From Entophlyctis helioformis (Eukaryota; Chytridiomycota; Chytridiomycetes; Chytridiales; Chytriomycetaceae): a stretch of DNA of 64,000 bases. This document shows, piece by piece, positions 26,701 through 42,952 of the stretch. The DNA lies in contig JAHLKH010000158.1 in assembly GCA_025526915.1 (NCBI GenBank), forward strand, positions 1 to 64,000, in the 5' to 3' direction. Under the pieces are notes generated by a model that worked only from the letters and a program-made list of their open reading frames with translations, was not told the origin of the DNA and searched no databases. Position 1 is the first letter of the stretch. Each line of letters opens with the position of its first letter. Made by a program: the position numbers and the translations under genes.

Positions 26701-28056
26701 ACAGATCCTACAAGTGGTCCGGACGCGAAAGTGAGCTGGCTAGGTTGGAGGAGGGGGGAATTGGTGTTCAGGCAGACGCAGGCGCACCTGAAAGAGCAGA
26801 CGTGCGTCTGATGCGCACTGCCGCATTTCCTTGGACATGGGCTGGCCCGCATTGTCTATTGCAGCCGGGTCTGCATCCGTCGTGCTTGTATCTGTCGGTC
26901 ATTCAACAGTCAGACGACTGGCTGTTAAGCAGTGCCAGAGTGGACGACGAGCGCCGTTCGTACTCATACTTTGGGCATCAGCCTGCGCCTCGAGTGTCCC
27001 CAGACGCTCAAAGGCGTGGATAAAGAGCTGTCTGAACGTCACGGCGGCCGTGCTGTTGACGACGGGGAACTTTGTATCCTGCAGCTTGTAGCAGAGGTAC
27101 AGAGCGTCTGCAAGCGTGTCGCCATAGACGGAGCGGTAGTTTGTGATCATGGGCAGGATGGTCTGCAGGATCTTGAGCTGCAGCTCCATGGTGCTGCCCA
27201 GCTGGTCAGACAGCGTCTTGATGATCAGGGCCGTTGAAGACTCTGGCACGGCCTGGTGCGAGATGAGCTTTTGCAGGCACGAGATGGCGATGGGGATGAG
27301 CTTGGGGTTCTTTGTCTCGCAGGACATGACAAACGGCCGGATCGTGTCATCGGTCTTGGAGAGCTCTGTCGCAGAACGGAGAGCAGACGTCAGCTGGGCA
27401 GGCCGTGGACGGCGGGACACAAGCAGAACGAATGCAAGCAAGCAAGCATGGATGCATCCATAGGAAACCTTCGGCGAGCGTGTCGGGTGCACCCGGGGTC
27501 TGGGCAGACGAGGCGCGATCCTTGAGCGAGCGAAGCAGGAACAGCAACCGCTCGGCAGCCTGCAGTCAGCCAGCCAGCCAGCCAGCCAGATGCCAGAGGT
27601 AAGTCGCGGCTGGGCAAATGAGCGCACGGTCCGCGTGCCGTCGGCCGGCATCCGTGTGCGACGGCCCAGACGTTTTACAGACGCATCCACTGGCTGCATG
27701 CGTCGCCGCCCAGCAGCAGCAGCAGCCATGGGCAGGCGAGCCAGGCCAGCAACGGACGCCCGTCCATCGCGGCGCTCGTTCGAGTCGCGTTGGACGAGGC
27801 CGGCCAGCCAGCCGTTGCTGCGTCCAGCGCCATCGGCACGGCTTGGCAGCACAAGGCCAGACCAGGAGAGCCAGACAAAGCCAGCCGAGAGCCCGGGCAG
27901 GGCGGGGCGGGCCACGGCAGAGCGAGCCAAGGCAGACAGGGCGAGCCAAGGCAGGCGGCAACGCACCTCTTTGATTTCGGGGTTCTTGCGCTTGGCCTCG
28001 TTGGACAGGCTGACGAGCTCGTTCTGCAGATACGCGGCCAGGCCGCTGGTGCTCAT
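20702..28056 (-). CDS. MON2: MON2 homologue, large Arf-GEF-like Golgi/endosome trafficking protein
   Basis: Seven exons with matching phases encode about 2,172 residues: 28056-27967, 27559-27469, 27365-26970, 26891-26788, 26707-26106, 26019-21076 and 20993-20702. Recognisable MON2 segments are AAYLQNELVSLSNEAKRKNPEIKEAAERL at the N-terminus, LLFQDLCLLTSGEPASFL, FGLELIESVL, LETLNRLLQINGQSLSMGW, and a C-terminal LPMPRLRTSELLFVLQNIRD. MON2 relates to BIG/GBF Arf-GEFs but lacks a Sec7 domain, and works with Dop1 and a P4-ATPase in endosome-to-Golgi traffic. The protein is longer than the usual about 1,700 residues because of Ser/Ala/Gly-rich inserts in exon 6. Intron 1 is unusually long at about 400 nt. 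Confidence 0.88.
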
Positions 28057-28359
28057 GGCGCGCGGCGTGAGGGTATCGACTGCTGGTATTGGCTGCCGGT
28101 ATTGGCTGGCGGTGTTGGCTGGCGGTATGGACTGCTGGTATGGACTGCTGGTATGGACTGCGGCGTGGTGCTGCGAGCTGCCGTGCCGAGGGTATGGAGC
28201 AGCGGGCTTGGGTGGACTGGATGGGCTGGGTTCGGTTGGATGAATCGAAGCGTGGTGCGTGGACTCGCGGGGCTGGATGAGTGTGGATGGTTGGTTGCGT
28301 GTGGTTGGTTGATGCCACTTTGCCCAGCACACACCTCTGCCCAACACTCACCAACCCCA
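28057..28359. promoter_or_regulatory. Bidirectional promoter region with minisatellite
   Basis: Only 303 bp separate the divergent MON2 and isochorismatase start codons. The MON2-proximal half is a minisatellite of units like TATGGACTGCTGG and TATTGGCTGCCGG (about 28078-28160). The other half carries GGTTGGTTG-type repeats. No TATA box is evident. Confidence 0.5.
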
Positions 28360-29283
28360 ATGTCGGCCCTCGTGCGTCCCGCGTCGCTCCGCAGCCCGTC
28401 GCTGGCCTCGACGGCCTTCTTCGTGTGCGACATCCAGGAGCGCTTCCGCCCGCTCATCCACAACTTCCCGTCCGTCGTTGCCACGGCCCACAAGATGGTT
28501 GGTAGTGGGCTGGCTGGCTGCCTGTCTTGGGCTGCCTCTCTTGGGCTGCCTGCCAATCTGCCTGCCTTGCGCTGCCTGACTCGTGCCGCCATCGCTCACC
28601 TGCGCCGTGCCCCCTGCCAGATCGAGGCCGCCAAGATCCTGTCCGTGCCGCTCATCGTCACAGAGCAGCACCCAAAGGGCCTGGGCCACACCGTCGCCGA
28701 GCTCGACGTTGCCGGCGCACACTGCCGTCTGCCAAAGACAAAGTTCTCCATGTGGACGCCCGAGGTCGAGAGCATCGTCACCAAGGAGCTCAAGTCCAAG
28801 TCGGCCGTGCTGTTTGGCATCGAGGTGTGTGCGTGCGTGTCTGCGTGCCTGTCAACGTGCCATCATGCGATCCTTCATGCACGGCTGCGACGCTGACCGC
28901 CACTGCCGCCGCCATGATCCCATCCAGTCGCATGTCTGCGTCACTCAGACTGCCCTGGATCTGCTGCGCAACGACATTGACGTCTACGTGCTGGCCGACG
29001 GCGTGTCGTCCATGAACAAGGAGGAAGTGCCCATTGCCATCCAGGTGTGCACAGCACAGTCGCATCCCGCTGATGCACATGCACGGCTTGCGCAGCTAAC
29101 CCGCCAGCGATCATGCAACAGCGTCTGAAGGAGGCCGGCGCCGTCATCACCAGCTCAGAGTCGATCCTGTTCCAGCTGCTGGTCGACTCGAACCACACGC
29201 ACTTCAAGGCCATCTCCAACCTGGTCAAGACCACAAAGGACTCGACCGCGTCTGCTCTCAAGGGCCTGACTTCCAGCCTCTGA
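28360..29283 (+). CDS. Isochorismatase-family hydrolase (ISOC1/2-like)
   Basis: Four exons (28360-28497, 28621-28824, 28928-29044, 29122-29283) encode about 206 residues with consistent phases. The cysteine-hydrolase triad is visible: Asp24 in FFVCDIQERF, Lys near 85-87 in LPKTKFSMW and Cys118 in SHVCVTQTALDLL. The motif VTEQHPKGLGHTV also fits the ISOC1/ISOC2/YcaC branch rather than true nicotinamidases, which carry a metal-binding DXH. The physiological substrate of this branch is unclear. Length matches the family. It shares a short upstream region with MON2 and converges on the Fanzor-type gene, whose stop codon is about 335 bp away. Confidence 0.85.
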
Positions 29284-29419
29284 TCCGCCCCGTCGGTCCG
29301 TATGCTCGTATGTTCCTATGCCCGCCTGCCTGTCTGCTGCCGCCAATGAAACCTCTTGGCCCGGTTCCGCGATTCTCTCTTGCGATGTATGGGCCCGATA
29401 TTCATACAATTACCAAGAA

Positions 29420-29618
29420 GTATTGAATTGGATTCGTCGCAAGAGGCGACGAATGCAAGCCAGCACATCACACGATGGAAGGTTCGAGTCAGCAACGAGC
29501 ATGCAATGACAGCCAGGCGAGGCACATCCAACGAGGGTCTTACCTTTATCGTTAGAAAAAGTGACCCGTTAGGTCGATCGGGAGGTCCCCCGATTCAAAG
29601 TGTTGGTAGTCAAACAAG
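29420..29618 (-). ncRNA. Candidate Fanzor guide-RNA (omega-RNA-like) region with two stem-loops
   Basis: This lies directly 3' of the stop codon of the Fanzor-type gene. Two inverted repeats are seen. The first is a 6-bp stem ATCGGG/CCCGAT with a 6-nt loop at 29577-29594. The second is a 9-bp perfect stem ATTCGTCGC/GCGACGAAT with a 5-nt loop at 29432-29454. In characterised Fanzor and TnpB loci the guide RNA derives from the region overlapping or following the 3' end of the nuclease gene. The position fits, but the RNA and its boundaries are inference. The second stem could instead be a transcription-end or element-end structure. Confidence 0.3.
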
Positions 29619-32600
29619 TCACTGTGTGGGATGCAGGTCAAGTGACTTGAGGGCAGGCTGTCCGCGTGTTGGTCGCAGCTGGTCGACACGTCTTGCACGA
29701 TCCTGGACAACAGGCCGATCAGATGGTGTTGGAGGCTGCTGGATGACGGGCGGATCGGGTGGTGCCAGAGGCTGCTGGTCGACAGGCGGAGCACGCATTG
29801 CACGCAGCTGGATGGAGATATGCATTGCCGCGATACTGTTGAGGTGCGCTTGCGTGGCTGGATTGCTGTCGGCTTTGGTGTGCGTCAAGTAGAGCGGCCG
29901 GTGTCCAAAGAGCAGATGCCACAGCGCGACCATCCCGATGTTGGTGGCTCCAAGAACGTCTCGGTGGTAGACGGTCTCGCATGGTATGCACTCGTAGCGT
30001 CGCAGGTTGGTGCGGTTCTTGTCTGGGATCCGCTGCTTGCACTGCGGGCACATCTGGCTGGTCAGGTTCTCGTTGCAGCGGTAGATCTGTGTGTGTGTGT
30101 GTGTGTGTGTGGTCAGTTGGTGCACAGATGGATAGATGGATGGCATGGCATCAGACGCACATAGGCATATCCAGACGACCGCAGATGCCTGATGAGAAAC
30201 CTCTCAAACACAGCATGCCGGCCACCTTGGCCTGTAAAGTCGATGCCAAATGCCCACACAACGGGAATGTCCTTCTCTGTTGGCTTGTCACAGCGGCCTT
30301 GAGACGCAGCAGATGCGCGCTCTCCAGTGGTTGATCCTGCCAGATTCATGATGCCCTCAAGAGCGTTTCCGCGATCAGACGTGCTGTTGCTGCGCATGGT
30401 GAACCGCTTGGCTTTGACCTTCTGTGGAATGCCATGCCACGCCATGCCATCCAGTGCAATCAGCAGGCAATCAAGCAGCATGGCGGTCATGTCAATGGGC
30501 ATCCAGAAACAGAGAAAACGTACCCGTGCATTCAGGAATGGCGTGCAGTACGCACGGCAGCGCAGATCCCAAAAGGCTCTCTCGCCAGGCTTGACGTTTG
30601 GATCGGCATGCTTTGCTGTCTTGAATGCAATGGCTGCCTGGACGTCGGCTGCCTTGGCAAGTCGGTCATCAAACCTGGCACAAGAGGCAGGCACTGTGAG
30701 TTGATCTGGTCAAGAGTGCGCGTGGCAGAGTCATTGCATGCATACCACCGCTGAAAGATGCCCTCAGCTTGTGCCATGCCAGAGGCGAGCACGTAGTTGG
30801 ACTCGAGGGTATACGAAAAGTCCCTAAGGTCGACCAAGATGCTGGACGCGCCATACAGGTACCGCTGGCCCCAATCAAAGCTGACAATGCGCACAAACCG
30901 GTAGCCCTTGTTGGTGAACAACTTGTTGGCTTTGAGGATGTTGGGCAATCGCTGCGAGGCGTAAAAGTTGCGCTGGGCCTGTCATGCCATGGCATGAGTG
31001 AGGAATGCACAATGCATGTGCACCAATGCGCGAGTTTAGCATGCAAGTGGCTTACAGGATTGGTCGCTTTTGGCTTGGCGGCTGATGGGTCGGCAGGATC
31101 GGCGGCTGTGGATGGCATGTCAGTCGGTGTGGACAACAAGTGCGCGTCTGGATTGGCACAGCAACTCACATTCGCAATCCATGTGATCATGCCCATCATT
31201 GGCCTCATCATCATGAGCATCACCAGCAAGACTGAGCTGCTGGGCTGGAGAAGCCGCATTGGGATCTGCAGAGCAAGGCGGATGTCAGAACCAATGTGTG
31301 CACCATCGCATTCAAGCACGCCACATACTGCGAGGCGACTCTGGACGGTCTGTGCGAAAGTCCAGAGTCAGCTGAGAGACGCTGTATCCATCGGTCTTGA
31401 TGCTGCCTAGTCTGACAGCCTTGGTTGGTCGCGCTGGGAGCAGGGCTTTGATCGCAGCCTGGATGTAATCCTCGCGCTCCTTGCCATCCAGACTCTGCTT
31501 GTTGGCCTCTCGCGTCGCCTTGGCTTTGGCCGCTTTCTTTGCCTTGGCGTTGGCCGCGTCCATTTGGACCTTAGCGTCTGCAGGCGTCTGGAAGCGTCGT
31601 GTATCCGAGGCGAGTCCGGGGAGGAGAATGTCGAGAACGCAATCCTCGCGGCTTGAGCTGAAAGCGGCTTGTATGTCGTTGTTGGATGACGCAAGAGTCA
31701 AGGCTTGCGAGCCAGGCTCTTTGAGAAGAGTGATTTGTAAGTATCAAATCATGTAAGCATGGCATAACCAAGTGCGACCTACTGCTGATCGCAGCCAAGA
31801 GACGCTTTTGCAAAGCCTGCAATGCCGCGTTGTTCTTGGTTGGCTTGCGATCCTTCAGGTTCCCTATCACCGACCAAAACAGAATGGTCTCGGTGATATG
31901 GACAAACGGGTCCCGATTCGCCGCCTCAGGGCATAACTTGATCACTGTTTCGCCGGCCAGCTTGCGCAGCTGGTAGAACTTGCCTATTTCTGACAGCGAT
32001 TTGTTGAGCAAGATCGCCGCAAGCCTAACCAGCTGTCGGGGGATCCCAGCAATGGCTATGCCCTCTGTGTCTGAAGGTGTGCTGGATGCCGCGTCTGTGG
32101 TGGCCTCGTCCCTCTCGCCACATGGCTTCTTGGTCGCGGTGCAATCGGTGGGCAACAAAGAGCTAGACAGGGCCCTCTTGCGACCTGCCGCAGGAGGTGC
32201 AGCATCCAGAGTGGCTTGTGGTGCAGCGTCAAGATCGGCCAGCGATGGGGCGTCCTTAGCGATCAGCGGCATGGCGTCCTCAGCGACCAGTGATGCCGCG
32301 TCCTTGGCGGCCAGTGGCGTGGCGTCCTCAATGGCTTTGGTCATGGCCGCGACTGATGCCACGACCTCCTCCTTTGATGCGCCGGGCATCAGCTGGTGGG
32401 CAGCAGCAAGAACGAGCATCGACTGGTTCGAGATGACATGCACTGCCAGCATGGTGCAGATATCTCGGGCCAAGTAGCTGTAGATGTCACCGGTCGCTTT
32501 CCCACACAGACCAACAGCCAGCTTGCATGGCAGGACTGCCTTGTCCAAATCTGTCTGGATCGCGCTTGTCTGGATCGCATCCATCTTGTCAGCATCCATC

Positions 32601-35600
32601 ATATCCATGCCCATCATGTCAGCATCAGCCATGTCTGCACGCACCTTGCCTGCATAGGCGTGCACCATGCGCCGCGTCCAGTTACGGTGAACAATCAGTT
32701 GCATGACGGTGACCAGCCATGTGTTGGTGGTGTCCATATATGATCGCGGCTTTGCCATGCGACCATTGCCAACAATCATGACAATGTGGCGTAGGAGACA
32801 TGCCACAGACGTCTCGCCGCCGGATCTGCTGCTGGTCAGTGCTGTGAGGAGTTGATTGGCAGTTGGAATGACTGCTGCTGCTTCTGCTTCTGCTTGCTGC
32901 TCGTGCTGCTCATGCTGCTCATCATCCTCGTGATCCTCATGCTGCTCATCGTCCTCATGATCCTCATGATCGTTGTCGTCCTCATGATCGTTATCGTCCT
33001 CGTGGTCATCATGGTCGCGATCGTCCTCATGGCTGTCAGGACCGTCAGGGTCATTGGGGCCATTGGGCTGCTTGGGCTTCTTGACGCGTCCGAGCGAGCA
33101 GAGCTCAAGCACTGTGCCCTTTGAGAGGATCACAGAATCCCCATAGAAAGGGATTTTGCCCTTGCGACCATGTGGACCAACGCCGTACATAAACCGGACC
33201 ATGGTGTCCTTTTCCAGCACACAGTATCCTGCCAAGAGCGCAGCCTCCATCTTGCGGTCAAGTTTCTCGCGATCAAGAAAGCAGTAGTTGGTCTTTCCAT
33301 TGCGGGTCCACTTGAAAACGCAATAATCGAGTGGCAGTGGCTCATCTGACTCGAGCTTGAGCAGTACTTTGAGAACAGCGCCAAGCATCACAATCCCGAC
33401 ATGCCGAGCGCCGACGATGAACGTGTAAACCTTGGAAATGCAGGCTAGGACGATCATGGCGACGGTTTGCTCTGCTGAAAGTGGTTTGGCTGGAGGGCCC
33501 AACAACTTTGCGCTTGCTGGATTGTCTGAAACCATCTCCTGCACAGCTGTCAGCACACACAAAGCCGAGCATGCAGAGCAGCATCGCGATCAACTCCCAT
33601 ACCTTCAGATCCACGATCATATTGGGGCGATGTTGCTGCGTGTTTGTCTGAGCCTTTGGTGCTTTGGGATGCTGCTGTGCCTCCTGCTCGCGCTCGTGCT
33701 CGTCCTTCTCCTTGTCTTTCTCCGTGCCCTCCTCTGTTGGTGCTTTGAAATTGGCGACTGCAGGAAGAGTCTGGCAGGCCCCTTGTTTGTAGTCGCCCAT
33801 CCGGACAAGCTCATTGTGCAAGGTGCGTCTTGCATGAAATGCGTATCTGCCAGCAGAATGCATGTCAGCAAGCACAATCAAGGCACGCGACATGCCATAT
33901 GCCACTTACGCCTGTGTCTCGTCCTCAGATTGAGCCTCGCGGGCTTGCTTGCTCGCATCCTTCTTGTTCTCCTTGACGATCTCATCTGCCTTGGCCTTCT
34001 CTGCACGCTCTGCCCTCTCCTTCTCACGTGCAGCCAGCATGGCCGGCGTGCAATGGCGTGGCTCCTGCCGTGTTTGGATGCAGTATCAGGTGTTCATTCT
34101 GCGTGCACAAGATGCTCACAATCACAAGCCTGCAGTTCAACTCACAGTTGTCTTTGTGTCATCAAACACACCAAGAGGGAATCTCTTAAGGCATGCTTGG
34201 TTGGCGCGATCGTTCTCAGATGACCTGGGCAGCTTTTCTGGCAGTGGAGGAGGGCCAGCCTGTCAAGCAAAAGGATGAGCAATCGTGCCAAATCACTGCG
34301 GCACACACAGACAATGGAAGATGAGACGCACTGCAGCTTGCTCGATGACTTTCTGCAGCAGAGTAATGGCCTTTAGACGCTGATTGGCGAGTGTGATTGA
34401 ATTGCCCCTGCCCTTGCCCTTGCCCATGCTGATGCGTCGATTCTTGAGGCCATTCAGGGCGTCCAGCAGGTCTGTGGCCTCCGCATGGATAACTTCAAAC
34501 GTGTCTGCCGGTGCCACTCTTGTACTGATCCGCCTGCGGTGCTTGATTGGCTGTGTGTCTTGCTGCGTTTGTGGATCTGCAATAACCCGTTCCACAATGA
34601 TGGCATTGTGAGTGGATGATATCAAGTCATCGCAAAGCAAGCAGCACATACTGGGAGTGGATACATTGCTGAATGGGGCGCGTTTGGGATGCGCGATCTT
34701 GTGCAGCCGATCGCGCATTCTTGGAGCAACAGTCTGTGCAGGAGCAATGGATTGAGTCAGTCACATTCAAGATCAACAACCACACATGGTGCAAGAGCAA
34801 CGGCATGCATCCAAGCCATGCAGCAACTTACAAAGGCGTGCAAAATGAGCTTATCTTGTTTGCTGAGACCTGCGTACTCATCCGGCTCAATAGATTGCTC
34901 CCTGACGGTCTGCAGAAGCTGGGTACTAGCCGTCCTGCAAATGGCAGAGAGGATATTACGGCGTGTGACGGCATTGTAGTTGTCGGCAAGGAGCTCAACC
35001 GCATGCCTGTTGATGGCACCCATCGCCACGCGGCATCCCTTGACTTCCCTGAATGCAGCGTCCAGCTGCCCACTGATGACAATAGTGATGGCAAGCTGCT
35101 CAACAGCACTGCGCGTAAGATGAACAGCTGCAGGGATGGGCTCGCCATTCTTTGCCTTGGGATGATTCAAGCAGCATCCAGGCGACAAGCACCTGGAGAA
35201 TGATCAGAGAATGGCATCAACACAGACATGCGGTGTCAGTCTTTCCAGAAACGCCACAGATGACATGCATGCATACTTGGTCTCAGCTGAGGCAGCCGTG
35301 TCAACATCCATGCTGTTGGCATTGCCTGATTGATGCTCAGAACTGGCAAGGCATTCAAACGGGTCAATGCCAGTATGTCTGCAACCGCACTTAATCAAGA
35401 AGCTTGCCTGGTTGCAATCACGCCAGTTGGTGCACTGGGCTCAGTCTGATTGACAAAGATGTCAAACGCATTCTGGAATGAGTGCACAAGGCTCCCATCG
35501 CCAATCTCAGCCAACTCTTTGATGTACGCGTCCTTGACAGCATGCATGAATATGCTGGCCTCAAATGGAGTTTGAAGGATGGCACAGAGCTCGGATTTCT

Positions 35601-38586
35601 CAATCCCCAGCTCAACAGCCTTGGCGTTGAACTGCGTGTTGGTGAATTCAGTGGCAGCCGCGATTCCTGGCAGGGAATGCAAGCAGAATCGTGCACAAAG
35701 ACAAAGAATGGCATGAGTGATGACAGATACAACAAAACAGGCGCGGCAACTCACCGTAGCCATGGCGGGCAAAGAAATCTGTATGAGAAAGTGAATGTAG
35801 CACTGGGCCTCCAGGCGGACTTGCCGGCTGGTCTCGGGGCAGTGAGTATGCACGCAGGGGAACGGCGGGCAGACGACTGCAAGAACGGGGGAAACCAGAG
35901 CGGCCAGTGCGGCCCGACAATGTCTGTCCGGTCACGTGGATCACGTGGATCACGTGACCGCGACCGAGCATCCGTTACACTCCCCCCAGCGTAGACAGCC
36001 ACTCATAAGAAAGAAGAGTGGATGAACAGCGACTAAGAGGATGCATGGGCGTTGCACACACAAGAAGCAGAGGTGTGGGCAACAATGGACGCGTAGGACA
36101 CAGGACGGGAAACCGTGCGCTCAGAGCAACAAGGAGAGAGAGAGAGATGGAGTGGATGGAAGGGGAAGAGATGGAGAGATGGATTGGATGGAAGGGGAAG
36201 AGATGGAGAGGTAGACAGATCGGGGCCGAGAGGGTGAACATGGTCAACAGACACATGAACAGGTGGACAAGCCGGATGGTGCGGCGATCAGGATGGAAAG
36301 GCGACAGCAGCTGCGAGATCGTGCCGGTGGTGACCGAGCTGACGTGCGTGGCCGTGTTGGTGTAAGCTGATCCGAATGTGGTCAGAGCCGTACGGTGTAG
36401 GGTGGCGGCTGATGGCTGGTCAGGGACGCAGTGTGGGTTCAAGTGGCGATCCAAAAGGGATCCCACCCCAGACTCCTCTCGCAAGAGGCACCAAGCATGG
36501 CCTGGATACCCGGTCCAGGAGCTGATGCTGAGCTACAGATGTGCAACGTGCTGGGGCCGGTGTCTGCAGGCTGTGGCCGATGGATGCTGATGCCGAGACC
36601 AATGGCGGCTGGGTGGCTGAGGCGGCTGATGCTGCCAAGGCCGAGGTGATGAACGCGCCCGTCGATGAGAACATCGTGCTGCAGAAGCAGCGAGGCACAA
36701 GCCGATCCAGTGGTGGTTGATATGGCGGACAATGCAGCTGCGGCAGATGCAGGCCGTGCCGTGCTGACGCAAATGCCGATACTGACGTGCTGATCCAGAT
36801 GTGGTCAGGACTGATCGGCGTGGTTGTGGCGGCTGACGAAAGTTGCAGCGGTGCAGTTGAGGGTGTAAGTGGTGATCGGCTGTGGATCCCGCCCCAACTC
36901 CTCTCACAGGAGGCACAGAGCATGCCTGGAGACAATGTCCAGAAGCAGATGCGGCGACAAGCAGGTGGAGCTGATGCTGGCGAGCGAGCTGATGCCGGCA
37001 GATATCGAACCATGCGACGGAAGGCGAGTGTGAGGCGGCTGTAAAGAGGCATCGGATGCCAGAGCCGGTGGGTGGATGACGACACAGCCCACTGCCAGCT
37101 GCAGACCAAGACGCATGAAAAAAAAGTGCGCTGGTGCACAGCGGCAAGTGTCGACAAGCGGATGCCACGAGAGCACAGGAGCGTTGAGACAAAGACGTCC
37201 AGTGTGCGAGACTCGAGGCGCAACTCCGCAGGGCCTGGGTGGCAAGACTGCCGACCACCAGCAGGCCCTGGTTCCAGCCGAGGCAGCAGAGGCGGCGAGG
37301 ATGTCCAGCCAAGCTCACCAATGCTGCCCCGACCGAAAAAAAAGTTGGGTTCTTGCTGTAGTACTGGGCCGCCAGACGGACTTGCCGGCTGGTCTCGGGG
37401 CAGTGAGTATGCACGCAGGGGAACGGCGGGCAGACGACTACTTCATTGGGAGGCAGCACAGACCTGGTCTCGGGGCAGTGAGTATGCACGCAGGGGAACG
37501 GCGGGCAGACGACTGCAAGAACGGGGGAAACCAGAGCGGCCAGTGCGGCCCGACAATGTCTGTCCGGTCACGTGGATCACGTGGATCACGTGACCGCGAC
37601 CGAGCATCCGTTACAGTGAAGCAATCAGCTTGCACACACCACGAAAATCCCACACACCAAAGGCGGATGCCATGGTGGCAATCCCACCATGGTTGTAGGA
37701 TCGCATTGGCGCGATCCACCCATGCTGCATGTGTGTCAAAATGACAGCACAATGCCCAGCAGCATGGGCAACCAGATCTGAATCATTTCCAACAACAAGC
37801 ATTGGCTTTTGACTGCCACTCAATGCATACTGTGAGCCATCAACTAGAACAGAAGAACGCCATGACGATCTCTTACCTTGACTTGCAAACATGGCGGGCG
37901 ATGCAACAGTCTGCCTCGTAGTTGCAATGGCAGACCGTGAATCCATCCATCGATCGAGCCAGCTCCTTGAGTGCCTCAAAGATATGCTTCTTGTCGACGT
38001 TGGTCAGGCAGAAGAACCTCTTGAGGGCGTGTTTCTCTTCCCTGATCGCCAGAAGCAGAAGGTGGTTAGTATGGCAGCCACACAATTCAGAGCAGCGACC
38101 TTACTTGGTCATCAACCCCGCCTGCTTGTATTCTTGACGCTGGTAGATGTGCTGCTGGACTGTGGCGGCTGCTTTGAGCATCTTGAGTGTGCGGCTGTTG
38201 TGGACCAGCTTGACCTCCGAGTCGCTGAGACGCCCGTCAACATGGAACCAGACGTCGTGGCCATTGCCAAGCGACGCCATGAAGACCTCCAAGGCCGGCT
38301 GGATAATGGCCTTCCAGGCGGCCTTGGAGTCTGGCTGAGTGACGGCTGCTGTTGCAACCAAGGCTGAAAAGAAAAGGCTGAGAAAGTCGACGTGCAGCAT
38401 GCTGCTGATGAAGCTGCTGGCGGCTGTTGCTGTTGCGGCTGTTGCTGTTGCTGTTGTTGCGGCTTGATGTTGCGGCAGTGTGCTATGGAGCACAACCTGC
38501 ACGACCTGGCCCAGGGCCCAGGCAGCGGTGTGGACAAGGACGGCACCGTGCGTCTCGGCCACTTTCAGCAGGCCTACAAAAGTCAT
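29619..38586 (-). CDS. XPG/FEN1-like plus Fanzor (eukaryotic TnpB-like) nuclease gene, interrupted by an LTR element
   Basis: Inferred exons: 38586-38105, 38041-37877, 37812-37616 plus 35790-35755 (split by the insertion), 35666-35488, 35407-35277, 35192-34832, 34733-34332, 34259-34146, 34064-33910, 33846-33603, 33538-31783, 31718-31329, 31265-31224, 31147-31056, 30978-30746, 30674-30524, 30421-30161, 30086-29619. All phases agree, giving about 1,952 residues. The N-terminal part has XPG-type acidic motifs: SMLHVDFLSLFF, VWFHVDGRLSDSEVK, CNYEADCCIARH and LVVGNDSDLVAH. The middle is coiled/charged with an Asp/Glu/His-rich stretch. The C-terminus is Fanzor: RuvC-I Asp near 1617 (VSFDWGQRYLYGAS), WAFGIDFTGQGG, and a zinc ribbon LTSQMCPQC...YECIPC followed by HRDVLGATNI (RuvC-III Asp near 1840). 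Exons 4, 5 and 13 have the least certain borders. It could also be two adjacent genes. Confidence 0.6.
35796..35979 (-). repeat. Left LTR (184 bp)
   Basis: It is bounded by TGTAG and TTACA and lies next to the inner purine run. It holds three CACGTG E-boxes spaced nine bases apart near the TTACA end (about 35935-35957), a possible promoter cluster. It differs from the right LTR at three positions in the first 22 bases and lacks that copy's 75-bp insertion. Confidence 0.8.
37357..37615 (-). repeat. Right LTR (259 bp) with internal duplication
   Basis: This is the same repeat as at 35796-35979, but with an extra 75 bp: a 51-bp block (CTGGTCTCGGGGCAGTGAG onward) is duplicated with a 24-bp linker. 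The three E-boxes are retained at about 37570-37594. Near identity to the other LTR outside this block points to a recent insertion. Confidence 0.8.
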
Positions 38587-38920
38587 GTTGGTGCTGCTGC
38601 TGCTGTGTGGTGCTGGTGTGTGGTGCTGTGTGGTGCTGCGTACTGGTACATGCTGCTGCTGCGTCTGTATCTGTGTTTACGAGAAAAGAATTGGAGCGTC
38701 TGGCGGAGTTGAACTTTTCATTGCATGAAAACAGAGAGCGAGTGGATAGAGAGCGAGCAGTCTGGCACTCGCCGTCCCCTGCCCAACAGCCATCAAGGGA
38801 GCAGCAAGCACAGCCAACAGCCAGGCGTTCAAGATGCGGTCCTGTGTTGCTGGCACAGTCATTGATGTGATGCCACCCAGTGCGCAGCTTGACATGCACT
38901 GTGCAGCATCACTCTGTGTG
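38587..38920. other. Upstream region of the XPG-Fanzor gene
   Basis: The 334 bp contain GTGCTG-type repeats (38588-38650) and no supported gene. The minus-strand gene's promoter would lie here if its ATG is correctly placed at 38586. Confidence 0.35.
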
Positions 38921-39916
38921 TCAAATGAGCCGCATTGCAGCGAGCCTCTCTCCGAGTAGCGTCTTCTCAGTCAATGTCCCATTGCATCCAGCAATCGTCC
39001 TGATATGCATCTGCCATGTGACCCAGTGCGATGCAGTTGGTGTTACCTGACTGGCCAGCTGGTCCGTGGGCGGGTTGGCCGTTGACGCACTGCCTGCTTC
39101 GCCCCTCTGCTCTGGATTGTCCTTGTCAACAAACACAGTGCATGCAAGACTGTGATCGTCAGGGTCTTCGCCATCATCGTCGTTGTGGTTGTTGAATGAA
39201 TCGAGAGTGCTTGGTCTGTCTGGCCACTCCAGTTGCTGCTCAGTGGATCGCATCCAAGATGCCATCGCACCAAGTGCAATGTAGCCAGACACGCCTGCCA
39301 GCACTCGCGTCCTCCTCACCAATCTCGTCTGGATCAGTGTCATTGAGTGTGCTGGTCGTCGAGTTTGCTGTCACTGTCGAGTTTGGCGTCCAAGTCGGCA
39401 TGCCAATCCAGCTGTCCAGCAAGCAGTTCGTGCAGCCAACTCCAAGGATCGGCCCATTGAGCACGTCTCAGTGGCTGCTCATCTGCTGCTGCTGCATCCC
39501 ATGTCGCAGTCGGAAAGCACCAGGCAGCTCGGCCCTGCGATGCCAATGCTCTCGCTGTCCTCTTGAACAACAACCAGATCGCCCTGTTCACGGCCGTCTT
39601 GCCAACGTCTCTTGCTGTTTGGACCCATCAGACATGCACACAGTCAGTGCCAAGACAACACAGACACGGCCGTCAGACTGCTGTGCCATCGTTGACGGGC
39701 AATGGAGCATGCCTGGACAGACAGCGAGTCAACGCACCTGCTTGCCTGTCTGCAGCCTGCCTTCTGTCCGCCCGCCTTGTTGGGCATGCCTCTCAGACGG
39801 CCACGACCACGCTGCTCTGCTGGACGGCCCGCTCGACGGCCTGCTGCATGCCACCTTGAGCAGTGAGCCTCGCCGTCTCCCCTGAAGGACTCGTCCAGCA
39901 AGCGAGCGCTGTCCCA
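38921..39916 (-). CDS. Possible multi-exon gene of unknown function
   Basis: Several minus-strand segments look coding but cannot be chained with confidence. There is an ATG at 39916 (MGQRSLAGRVLQGRRRG then a GTGGCA donor). A segment near 39600-39470 reads REQGDLVVVQEDSESIGIAG in one frame and AIWLLFKRTARALASQGRAA in another. Another near 39350-39310 reads STLNDTDPDEIGEEDASAG. The last runs 39270-38921 (MRSTEQQLEWPDRPSTLDSF, then an acidic stretch), ending in TGA. I do not recognise a domain. It would be transcribed divergently from the FHA-domain gene and lie head-to-tail with the XPG-Fanzor gene. It may be a small host protein or part of the mobile locus. Confidence 0.3.
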
Positions 39917-40162
39917 TATCCGTGCTGTCGCCTGCGTCGCTGTCGTCGTTGTCGTTTGGCTCGTTGTTGTTTGTGTGCAGTTGGGCGGCAAGTGCAGCAG
40001 CGTCTGGCGCGTTGCTGCTGGACTCGTATCGCGCAGTGTCAGCACCGCGCAAGGGCTCTCTAGATCGGCCAATCACAGCGATTCCACCAAGAACAACCAA
40101 TCAGGAATATTCCACCAGGGGTAATGGTATGAGAAGTGGAGAACAGGGCCCCGATCTCGCAA
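39917..40162. promoter_or_regulatory. Promoter region of the FHA/HMG gene with CCAAT boxes
   Basis: Two CCAAT motifs lie at 40069-40073 and 40097-40101, about 60-95 bp before the ATG at 40163. The region is probably shared with the possible minus-strand gene on the left. Confidence 0.4.
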
Positions 40163-41673
40163 ATGCACGTCCACGCTCAGCTTCTGTTCGAAGGCAACAC
40201 ATCCGTCGACCTGTCCGGCTTCCTCGCACAGGGCGACCTGGTCATTGGGCGGTGCAGCGTCTTGCTCCGCATCCCCAACAACCTCCAAGTCAGCCGCAAA
40301 CAGGTTGTGCTGCGGATAGACCCAACCACCAGCCGTCTGCTCGTGACTCGGGTCCGTTGGTCTGTTCACCTGTCGCCTGCTCTGCCGGGTCGGTTGTCGA
40401 GCCAACAGACACTCGTGCTGATGCCCTGCCGCATGGACAGATGGGGACCAATCCTTCGCAACTCAACGGCATGGACCTCGACAAGGAGCGGTCGGCATGC
40501 ATCACAGACGGCGATGTGCTCAGCCTTCTGGCCGGCCAGTTCAAGATCAAGTTCACAATCGCTCGTTCGGAGCTGTCGCACTCGCCTTCCCTTGGACGAT
40601 CGCTCTCGGTGTCTCTGTCGACCCAAGATCACGGCCAGGAACTCCCGTCCAACTTGCCATCGGTACCGTTGGCACAGCCGCCGCCAATGTCCAAATCCGA
40701 GCGTATTGACGACGAGTCCAGCACAGACCTGCCGCTGCCCGATCCGCGTAGGGCCGCAAGCCTCGGATTCGCATCGTCAGAGGATGGCAGAAACGCACTC
40801 GAGATGCCACAGCCATTGTCACCAGAAGCGGCATCGTCCAGTTTGGCCGTATCATCACAGCCCATCCGCATTCCTGCAAGATCGACCCGCGCACCGCTTC
40901 TCCAGTCGCTCAGTCTGTCTGCATCCTTGGACTCTCATCAAGAAACTGGCGTGCAGCAATTGTCCCAGCAAGATCAGCCGCAGCCGTCGCCATTGGAAGC
41001 CTTTGATATGAAGCACACGCTGGCCTTTCTTCGCGGCGTCGAGCAATCTCTTGGTCTTGAACCTGCCAGCCATCCGCCCTCATTGCACTCGCTGCCCGCA
41101 CATCGCGCGTCCCGTCGCAACAGCCAGGCCGATGTACAGAACAAGAATGACTGTGATGATGTGGATGCACTTGGTGATACCGGTCGTGATGTTGGAAGCG
41201 ACGATGGTGATGGAGCAGAATCGGTCGTGTCGCACGAGTCGGCGTTGGTGCACGGATCAGACTCGGATGAGCCAGCCGAGCCGACAGAGCCTGCAGGGAC
41301 AGCAGTCATGCAGTTTGCCAAACAGGCTGCAAAGGATCTTGACCTCATCTTACGGCCACGCATCAAGCCCGGAATGGCATCCACGGCTGCAGCTGCCCGA
41401 AAACGGAAGGCGGACACAAAGGATTCGGGATTGGCAGTCAAGGGCATCTCGAGCAAAGAGAAATATCCTCGGAAAGCGACGGCGTATGGGATGTTTGCCA
41501 GCGAGATGCGCCAGCAGATTCGTGCCAAGCAGCCTGGCTTGGCGTCTGCAGATGTGACGCGCTCCATCAAGGGCATGTTCACCAAGCTGTCTCCCGACAG
41601 TCTAAAGGTGACCGTTCTGCGTCCACGGCTCGTGTCAGACGTCTGGCGTGGAACTTACACATGGCCCCAATGA
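40163..41673 (+). CDS. FHA-domain and HMG-box nuclear protein
   Basis: Two exons (40163-40351 and 40441-41673) encode about 473 residues. The first exon and the start of the second form an FHA-like fold: DLVIGRCSVLLRIPNNLQVSRKQVVL, RLLVTRMGTNPSQLNG and ITDGDVLSLLAGQFKIKF. The GTNPSQLNG stretch resembles the FHA domains of PNK/aprataxin/APLF-type DNA-repair proteins, which bind phosphothreonine. A Ser/Pro-rich linker follows. The C-terminus has an HMG-box-like segment (KEKYPRKATAYGMFASEMRQQI, then ADVTRSIKGMFTKLSPDSLK). This suggests a chromatin or DNA-damage role. The donor is GTCCGT and the acceptor GGACAG. A start codon upstream of 40163 was not found in frame. Confidence 0.7.
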
Positions 41674-42879: not shown

Positions 42880-42952
42880 GCTTCCGTGGCGCAATGGCTA
42901 GCGCGTAACGCTGTTAACGTTAAGGTTGGTGGTTCGAGCCCACCCGGGAGCG
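42880..42952 (+). tRNA. tRNA-Asn (anticodon GTT)
   Basis: The 73-nt sequence folds as a standard cloverleaf. The acceptor stem is GCTTCCG/CGGGAGC with discriminator G. The D arm is GCGC...GCGC, the anticodon arm TAACG-CTGTTAA-CGTTA with anticodon GTT, and the T arm GGTGG-TTCGAGC-CCACC. There is no intron. Box B (GGTTCGAGCCC) is intact, and a TTTT Pol III terminator follows at 42957-42960. The CCA end is not encoded, as expected in a eukaryote. Confidence 0.95.

Follow-up and report, generated by a model that had tools for sequence, protein, structure and literature searches.

The 64,000-nucleotide stretch of Entophlyctis helioformis DNA analysed here (contig JAHLKH010000158.1, positions 1 to 64,000; hereafter the window) carries on its minus strand one copy of a high-copy DNA transposon with terminal inverted repeats (TIRs). 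The best explanation of the gene that it holds is that it encodes a protein of about 1,960 residues, in which a FEN/XPG/EXO1-type nuclease is followed by a linker and by a Fanzor1 nuclease, and this reading is given a probability of about three in four. It is based on sequence motifs, a fold match, the exon chain, the pattern of selection and the TIRs, and a single mRNA would join both halves. The gene is part of the transposon, and the copy in the window has been inactivated by insertion of a long terminal repeat (LTR) element.

An eighteen-exon chain had been proposed for this region from the letters of the DNA alone (the sequence-only reading), and the chain was borne out. Between 38586 and 29618 the minus strand reads as a gene of 18 exons, separated by 17 introns that are each 63-102 nt long and all GT-AG except for one GC-AG intron (exon 4/5a). 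Independent support for the junctions came from two annotated proteins, P0001 (exons 1 to 5b) and P0002 (up to exon 4). The single reading frame assumed by the same reading stands in part: it is open through all junctions after the insertion (1,679 codons from exon 3b to exon 17) and for 281 codons before it, but in this copy it is interrupted inside exon 3. With the insertion removed, an open frame of about 1,960 residues with zero stops is obtained. The four acidic motifs were found in one frame (HVDF, 38394-38383; FHVDG, 38247-38233; YEAD, 37920-37909; NDSDL, 37787-37773), and the Fanzor core could be located as well (FDWGQ, 30879-30865; C4 ribbon, 30050-29979; HRDVLGATN, 29966-29940). A seventh acidic residue (TDFF, 35782-35771), the LTR break and the fact that the gene fills a multi-copy transposon had been overlooked.

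The assignment of the C-terminal part to a Fanzor1 RuvC core, already made by the sequence-only reading, is supported by a profile match, by motif spacing and by Fanzor1 signatures. The TNB domain (PF07282) was matched with 41.9 bits at a cut-off of 26.3 (E 1.1e-10), the NCBIfam family guided_TnpB with 28.6 bits at a cut-off of 100 (E 8.5e-7), and the solved TnpB-like protein L79 weakly (E 1.5). The Fanzor motif D-X(125,275)-[TS]-[TS]-X-X-C4 zinc finger-X(5,50)-RD, common to TnpB according to the available part of Bao and Jurka (2013, PMC3627910), is present in the window protein as D-X187-TS-QM-CPQC...CIPC-X5-RD, with spacings of 187 and 5. All three signatures given for Fanzor1 in the available text of PMC10711439 (D-Phi-G in place of DPG, an alternative Glu and the TDG of the WED domain) are also present, as FDWGQ (residues 1625-1629), NENLTS (1811-1816) and TDGY (1521-1524). 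The Glu of NENLTS would be the catalytic one and TDGY would lie inside the WED domain. Exon 10, the presumed REC/WED part, gave no convincing match of its own, a PDB sequence search included. The solved Fanzor1 protein SpuFz1 (Saito et al. 2023, PMC10432273) likewise has a RuvC domain with a C4 zinc finger and, as a Fanzor1, should share TDG, D-Phi-G and the alternative Glu (PMC10711439); in the part of the SpuFz1 paper available, the domains named are REC, WED, RuvC and NUC only.

For the N-terminal 390 residues or so, the prediction of a FEN/XPG/EXO1-type nuclease is supported by fold searches, by seven acidic residues and by sub-threshold Pfam matches, as the sequence-only reading had expected of an XPG/FEN1-like region. 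The seven acidic residues, which we take to correspond to the active-site residues of FEN1, occur in the right order and are invariant in six of six diverged sequences, one of which is without its first part. XPG_I_2 was matched in all six members under its cut-off. Structure models (AlphaFold) were made of the annotated proteins P0001 and P0002, which cover the N-terminal part only. The comparison of a predicted structure with XPG/FEN1 suggested earlier recovered a FEN/PIN-type fold in low-confidence models: members of the superfamily with a PIN-like fold and a helical arch top all four fold-search lists for the two models, at low template modelling (TM) scores. Both models retrieve EXO1, FEN1 and XRN folds. 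By VIA Z the best match of both is EXO1, ahead of XRN, while by Foldseek E-value XRN1 comes first for the first model (8.4e-4). The domain resembles the EXO1/FEN1/XPG superfamily in fold, strand order, the seven acidic residues and, at what we assume to be the FEN1 positions, the Lys and Arg after the second Asp; it differs in its identity of about 8-20% in structural alignments and in sharing a transposon-borne gene with an RNA-guided nuclease. A protein of the same genome, L035, presumably an asteroid-like XPG protein, has the EADxxIAR and xDSD motifs in register and an XPG_I_2 match of its own, but is encoded by a separate open reading frame (ORF) elsewhere and its profile match is weak. 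The start of the N-terminal part, compared with MGxxGL, reads MGVIGL in L026, MGVDGS in the class II consensus, MGVVGA in L030 and MTFVGLL in the window. An NCBIfam search with the N-terminal alignment returned nothing useful. Among viral contigs, five stretches fitted a pattern for an N-terminal relative and none was confirmed.

Selection was estimated from the ratio of nonsynonymous to synonymous rates (dN/dS, NG86 method), with codons taken from protein-guided matches. Values of 0.13-0.40 for the nuclease and 0.20-0.86 for the linker (nine pairs each) and of 0.30-0.52 for the Fanzor part (eight pairs) were obtained. In a frame control on DNA alignments of the window with L011, L013, L017 and L021, frame 0 showed a ratio of nonsynonymous to synonymous proportions (pN/pS) of 0.21-0.61 and zero stops in either sequence. 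In the other two frames pN/pS was 0.61-2.15, and the three parts of each comparison together held 36-93 stops. Open frames arising by chance are ruled out by this control. The contrast between frames is weakest in the linker, where frames 0 and 1 are equal at 0.61 for L013.

The genome (29.57 Mb, 482 contigs) contains many relatives, of which a first set of 20 loci of up to 10 kb each was taken. The middle ORF matched 110 genome pieces (66 of 369 candidates scored), with 87-97% protein identity on 17 other contigs and 34-50% for the rest, apart from one at 68%. Two classes of N-terminal module could be distinguished. Class I comprises the window, L011, L013, L017, L021 and part of L022; class II comprises L009, L010, L012, L014, L015, L016, L019, L020, L023 and L025, with parts of L018, L024 and L028. 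The classes are 31-46% identical in the main exons, with the switch near window position 34174. The middle regions also occur in types that are about 44% identical, while similarity is far higher at the ends and in the RuvC part. The combination of two N-terminal modules and at least two middle ones with so similar a RuvC end points to recombination between copies. As judged from these matches, diverged subfamilies keep the exon order: L032 matches all window exons but exon 9 in order, L033 does likewise as far as its sequence reaches, and L029, L030, L026 and L023, tested for exons 1-4 and 10-17, match them in order except for one short exon each (exon 13 in L029, exon 12 in the others). Exon 1 of L023 is of the class II type and was placed in the alignment of that class.

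The TIRs are 23 bp long. The right end GGTAATTGTATGAATATCGGGCC was found in 18 of the 20 relatives and in the window, with its last bases altered in L023, and wherever left ends were read they start with GGCCCGGTTCTCATACCATTACC or near it. Allowing up to three mismatches, a pattern covering both ends occurs at 127 and 129 genome sites (reversed-pattern control 0), and the left and right forms at 86 and 170 sites, respectively (controls 0). Both ends were read in eleven copies (L009, L010, L012, L014, L016, L019, L029, L030, L031, L032 and the window), L022 being left out for its truncated left end. Exact 8-bp duplications flank four of them: L009 (CAAGAATC), L012 (ATAAAGTC, outer repeat altered), L029 (AGAAAAAA) and L032 (CAAAGCCG). 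In L010 and L016 six to seven of the eight bases agree, and five copies including the window have none. In the literature available in part, 8 bp is the rule for Zisupton elements and common to hAT and others, hence it is not diagnostic of KDZ. L009 and L019 share the right flank but not the left, and L015 and L016 share the one flank that was compared, which suggests exchange between elements by recombination, or insertion into another repeat.

Genome-wide, the last Fanzor exon occurs at no fewer than 150 places, with 150 of 280 candidates scored. Among 100 exact sites listed there are 58 right ends, 47 of which have this exon 330-701 bp inside. Of the remaining 11, those of L012, L026, L027, L031 and L032 do hold the gene, two (C153, C168) are near exon-10 matches, and four (C39:61137, C66:117185, C97:50424 and C266:21163) lack both a listed last Fanzor exon and a match to exon 10. 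For 13 of 21 end pairs on one contig the spacing is 7.2-9.5 kb. Ends about 1.05 kb (C436:7860-8911) and about 2.2 kb (C199:20580-22748) apart are likely internally deleted derivatives. Besides the gene described here, none was found in the elements read. The 5' region is kept at its high identity even compared with subfamilies whose first exons diverge far more. A transposase or second gene hidden in it is unsupported: each of the six frames has 5-17 stops against each of eight relatives, with pN/pS of 0.46-1.59, and a 229-aa ORF in it gave no Pfam hit. The coordinates of all features are given in the table.

Table. Features of the transposon copy and its gene in the window.
Feature	Position	Strand	Remarks
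Whole transposon copy	29392..40143	-	about 10.7 kb including the later 1.82 kb insertion; left limit approximate, left end altered; left-end repeat about 40143-40010
Left terminal repeat	40120..40143	-	altered outside TTCTCATACCATTACC; relatives read GGCCCGGTTCTCATACCATTACC
5' region	38587..40010	-	about 1.4 kb; 87-92% identical to eight relatives from several subfamilies; all frames without a coding signature
Start and stop	ATG 38586; stop codon 29620-29618	-	
Exon 1	38105..38586	-	start, polyglutamine (polyQ)/Ala tract, HVDF and FHVDG motifs; predicted FEN/XPG domain
Exon 2	37877..38041	-	YEAD motif; exon 2/3 junction also in annotated protein P0001
Exon 3, first piece	37616..37812	-	NDSDL motif; split by LTR insertion
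LTR-flanked insertion (TG...CA)	35796..37615	-	1,820 bp; 5-bp duplication TTCAC; outside the gene; empty site in relatives
Exon 3, second piece (3b)	35755..35790	-	TDFF, seventh acidic residue
Exon 4	35408..35666	-	most of helix-two-turn-helix-like GYGIAAA and the helices after it
Exons 5a, 5b	35342-35277, 35192-34832	-	identical junctions in annotated protein P0001
Exons 6-9, linker	34733-34332, 34259-34146, 34064-33910, 33846-33603	-	
Exon 10	31783..33538	-	585 aa; acidic tract; presumed N-terminal Fanzor half (REC/WED)
Exon 11	31329..31718	-	Fanzor1-typical TDG motif at 31395-31384
Exons 12-16, RuvC	31265-31170, 31105-31056, 30978-30746, 30674-30524, 30421-30161	-	FDWGQ (D-Phi-G) in exon 14
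Exon 17	29621..30086	-	alternative Glu (NENLTS), C4 zinc ribbon, RD motif
3' non-coding right end	29392..29617	-	conserved; candidate guide-RNA (omega/reRNA) scaffold
Right terminal inverted repeat	29392..29414	-	GGTAATTGTATGAATATCGGGCC on the gene strand

The insertion that inactivates the window copy lies between IAS and SHTDFF of exon 3. Its termini are similar direct repeats with TG...CA, and TTCAC stands on both flanks. The four relatives that cover this site (L011, L013, L017 and L021) are uninterrupted there, and L022 has a deletion. Pieces of the same LTR repeat family were also seen in or beside L017, L020, L022, L024 and L028, as if it favoured this transposon or its surroundings. 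Neighbours of the element on the plus strand, at 40105-41673 and 27622-28896, are an ORF with a weak HMG-box match under the cut-off and an ORF with an isochorismatase domain. A tRNA-Asn gene (anticodon GTT) is located at 42880-42952, about 2.7 kb past the left end of the element.

A number of observations weigh against the best explanation given above. Apart from the interruption of this very copy, each of four relatives contains 1-19 exon insertions or deletions (indels) not divisible by three, and slips in the polyQ tract have put the start codon of L011, L014, L031 and L032 into another frame than that of the nuclease exon. For the N-terminal part, the Pfam bit scores shown are 12.4 and 19.9, under the cut-off of 24.2. 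The mean predicted local distance difference test (pLDDT) score of the two models is 47.5 and 48.8, Foldseek TM-scores are 0.17-0.41 across 33 rows, and a Foldseek E-value of 0.001 or less was reached by one match for the first model and by zero for the second. PDB profile and single-sequence searches with the N-terminal part gave no match, the hhalign link to L035 is weak (E 0.0046, probability 7.6%), and pieces of FEN1 and Rad2 (E 0.34 and 0.17) scored worse than an unrelated control (0.087). The splice sites were selected partly to keep the frame. All seven annotated proteins found (P0001-P0007) end before the Fanzor part, and protein searches, with about 8,000 candidates scored in each, revealed no longer ones. 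Exact target duplications are absent from seven of the 11 copies, and the right end shows no covariation in support of a guide RNA, with zero of 42 predicted pairs changed on both sides.

The indels and start slips taken together with the codon pattern indicate that individual copies decay and that selection acted on the codon pattern in the past. It is very unlikely that the open chain is a relic without an expressed protein and that the copies are dead passengers. The LTR break, the frameshifts or stops in relatives and the about equal rate of change of introns and exons between the window and four copies would fit such a degenerate repeat, but dN/dS well below 1 between both recent and diverged copies, the absence of stops from the codons aligned with four relatives and active-site residues invariant across six sequences are at odds with it. 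The caveat of the sequence-only reading that two adjacent genes could be involved is retained as a minor, unlikely rival: one transposon would hold an XPG-like nuclease gene (exons 1-5 or 1-8) and a Fanzor gene of its own (starting at exon 9 or 10), with two proteins made by alternative splicing or from different transcripts and working together in trans. In its favour, the available part of Bao and Jurka (PMC3627910) describes Fanzor elements in which a further nuclease (GIY-YIG) has its own gene, the annotated proteins are N-terminal only (P0002 ends at 397 aa), exon 9 is unmatched in L032 and L033, and the linker is under the weakest selection. Against it, annotated models of repeats are often truncated, gaps of 63-102 nt leave little space for a terminator and a promoter, the frame after the insertion is open across all junctions without a stop, and linker exons 6-8 keep their order in L032 and L033. 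One gene is favoured by the short gaps, the open junctions, the exon order and linker exons kept in diverged subfamilies and dN/dS below 1 in all parts, and from the sequence a single protein very probably joins both halves.

As to function, the RNA-guided cutter probably carries the 5' nuclease for the resection or processing of ends. With an RNA from the right end of the element as its guide, the Fanzor half would cut an empty or allelic site; the fused EXO1-like half would resect or trim the 5' ends, and the break would then be repaired by copying the element back. As a whole this cut, resect and copy-back mechanism is tentative, with the odds against it. The right end is conserved (mean column identity of 79% in a 23-sequence alignment), and four stretches of it gave shuffle z-scores of -0.8 to -1.8; the right end is where Fanzor guide RNAs originate (PMC10711439, available part). 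Somewhat more doubtful is that the fused nuclease acts on RNA or on the element's own ends, in guide-RNA trimming or flap removal during excision or insertion, instead of resecting Fanzor breaks. Among the FEN-fold relatives are the 5'-3' RNases XRN1 and XRN2, the first model has XRN1 as its top Foldseek match by E-value, and RNA derived from the right end may be processed by this domain; against this, VIA Z ranks EXO1 and not XRN first for both models.

A fixed 8-bp duplication together with TIRs usually marks a DDE-type transposase, and strand transfer at the TIRs would more likely be performed by a transposase acting in trans. Short derivatives, C436:7860-8911 among them, suggest that the element is mobilised in this way. 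The available part of PMC3627910 describes Fanzor elements that lack a transposase and whose TIRs and duplications are those of known transposase families; such elements may be moved in trans. These points speak against the protein as the sole mobility factor of a transposase-free, RNA-guided TIR transposon, with its two nucleases carrying out excision and insertion. This has little likelihood, even though the elements read showed no second gene, the 5' region appears to be non-coding and the Fanzor exon accompanies most listed right ends. Among the families searched, the only transposase of an 8-bp-duplication type that was matched is KDZ, with four hits on three contigs (C334:6404-7253, C271:9823-10062 and C396:222-449), three of the four hits with internal stops. 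None lies between TIR pairs among those listed (100 of 170 right ends listed, part of the elements read); the KDZ matches are possible former movers of this transposon family. A MULE mover is not supported: the genome gave zero hits, with the search control positive in prokaryote genomes. The hAT transposase search found zero, but its positive control was also silent and the search is hence uninformative, and elements outside those read may hold a transposase. A self-contained RNA-guided cut-and-resect machine that spreads the transposon without a transposase of its own, the Fanzor half picking and cutting the site and the EXO1-like half readying the break for copying the element in, is graded as improbable.

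A Fanzor1 joined to a 5' nuclease appears, from its predicted domains, to be a new architecture as far as the literature search reached. No Fanzor with an XPG or PIN domain, or from Entophlyctis, was found in the literature searched, most subscription papers being outside its reach, and the available parts of the Fanzor papers looked up contain no fusion of this kind; within these bounds the sequence-only reading, to which no described form with a flap-nuclease-like domain was known, holds. Viral genes have been called 'Fanzor flap endonuclease homologs', with no fusion described in the available part of that paper (PMC11071296), and the nearest precedent seen is the separate GIY-YIG gene in a Fanzor element (PMC3627910). 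Compared with the Fanzor1 transposons of fungi in the available part of the latter source (SPu-1 of Spizellomyces punctatus and TIR elements of Rhizopus, Phycomyces and Mucor), the present one is likewise a fungal TIR DNA element with Fanzor1 as a main gene. Several of those elements are without a transposase, and they have defined duplications (putative TA for SPu-1, 9 bp for MuDR-like ones). SPu-1 is about 2.1 kb long and encodes a 633-aa protein, whereas most of the elements measured here are about 7.2-9.5 kb, with an 8-bp duplication, a protein of about 1,960 aa and a predicted FEN/XPG domain. Since the N-terminal profile finds seven annotated proteins, all from E. helioformis (7,996 candidates scored), the architecture may be confined to this species, at that sensitivity.

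Fanzors are eukaryotic RNA-guided nucleases related to Cas12 of CRISPR, and their role for the transposons that carry them is an open question. A family with an apparent Fanzor-5' nuclease fusion, whose Fanzor last exon stands at 150 or more places and whose two active sites are kept by selection, would provide a natural link between RNA-guided cutting and end processing. Having both in one protein makes the question of the Fanzor role testable, and a natural nuclease fusion may be of use for genome editing.

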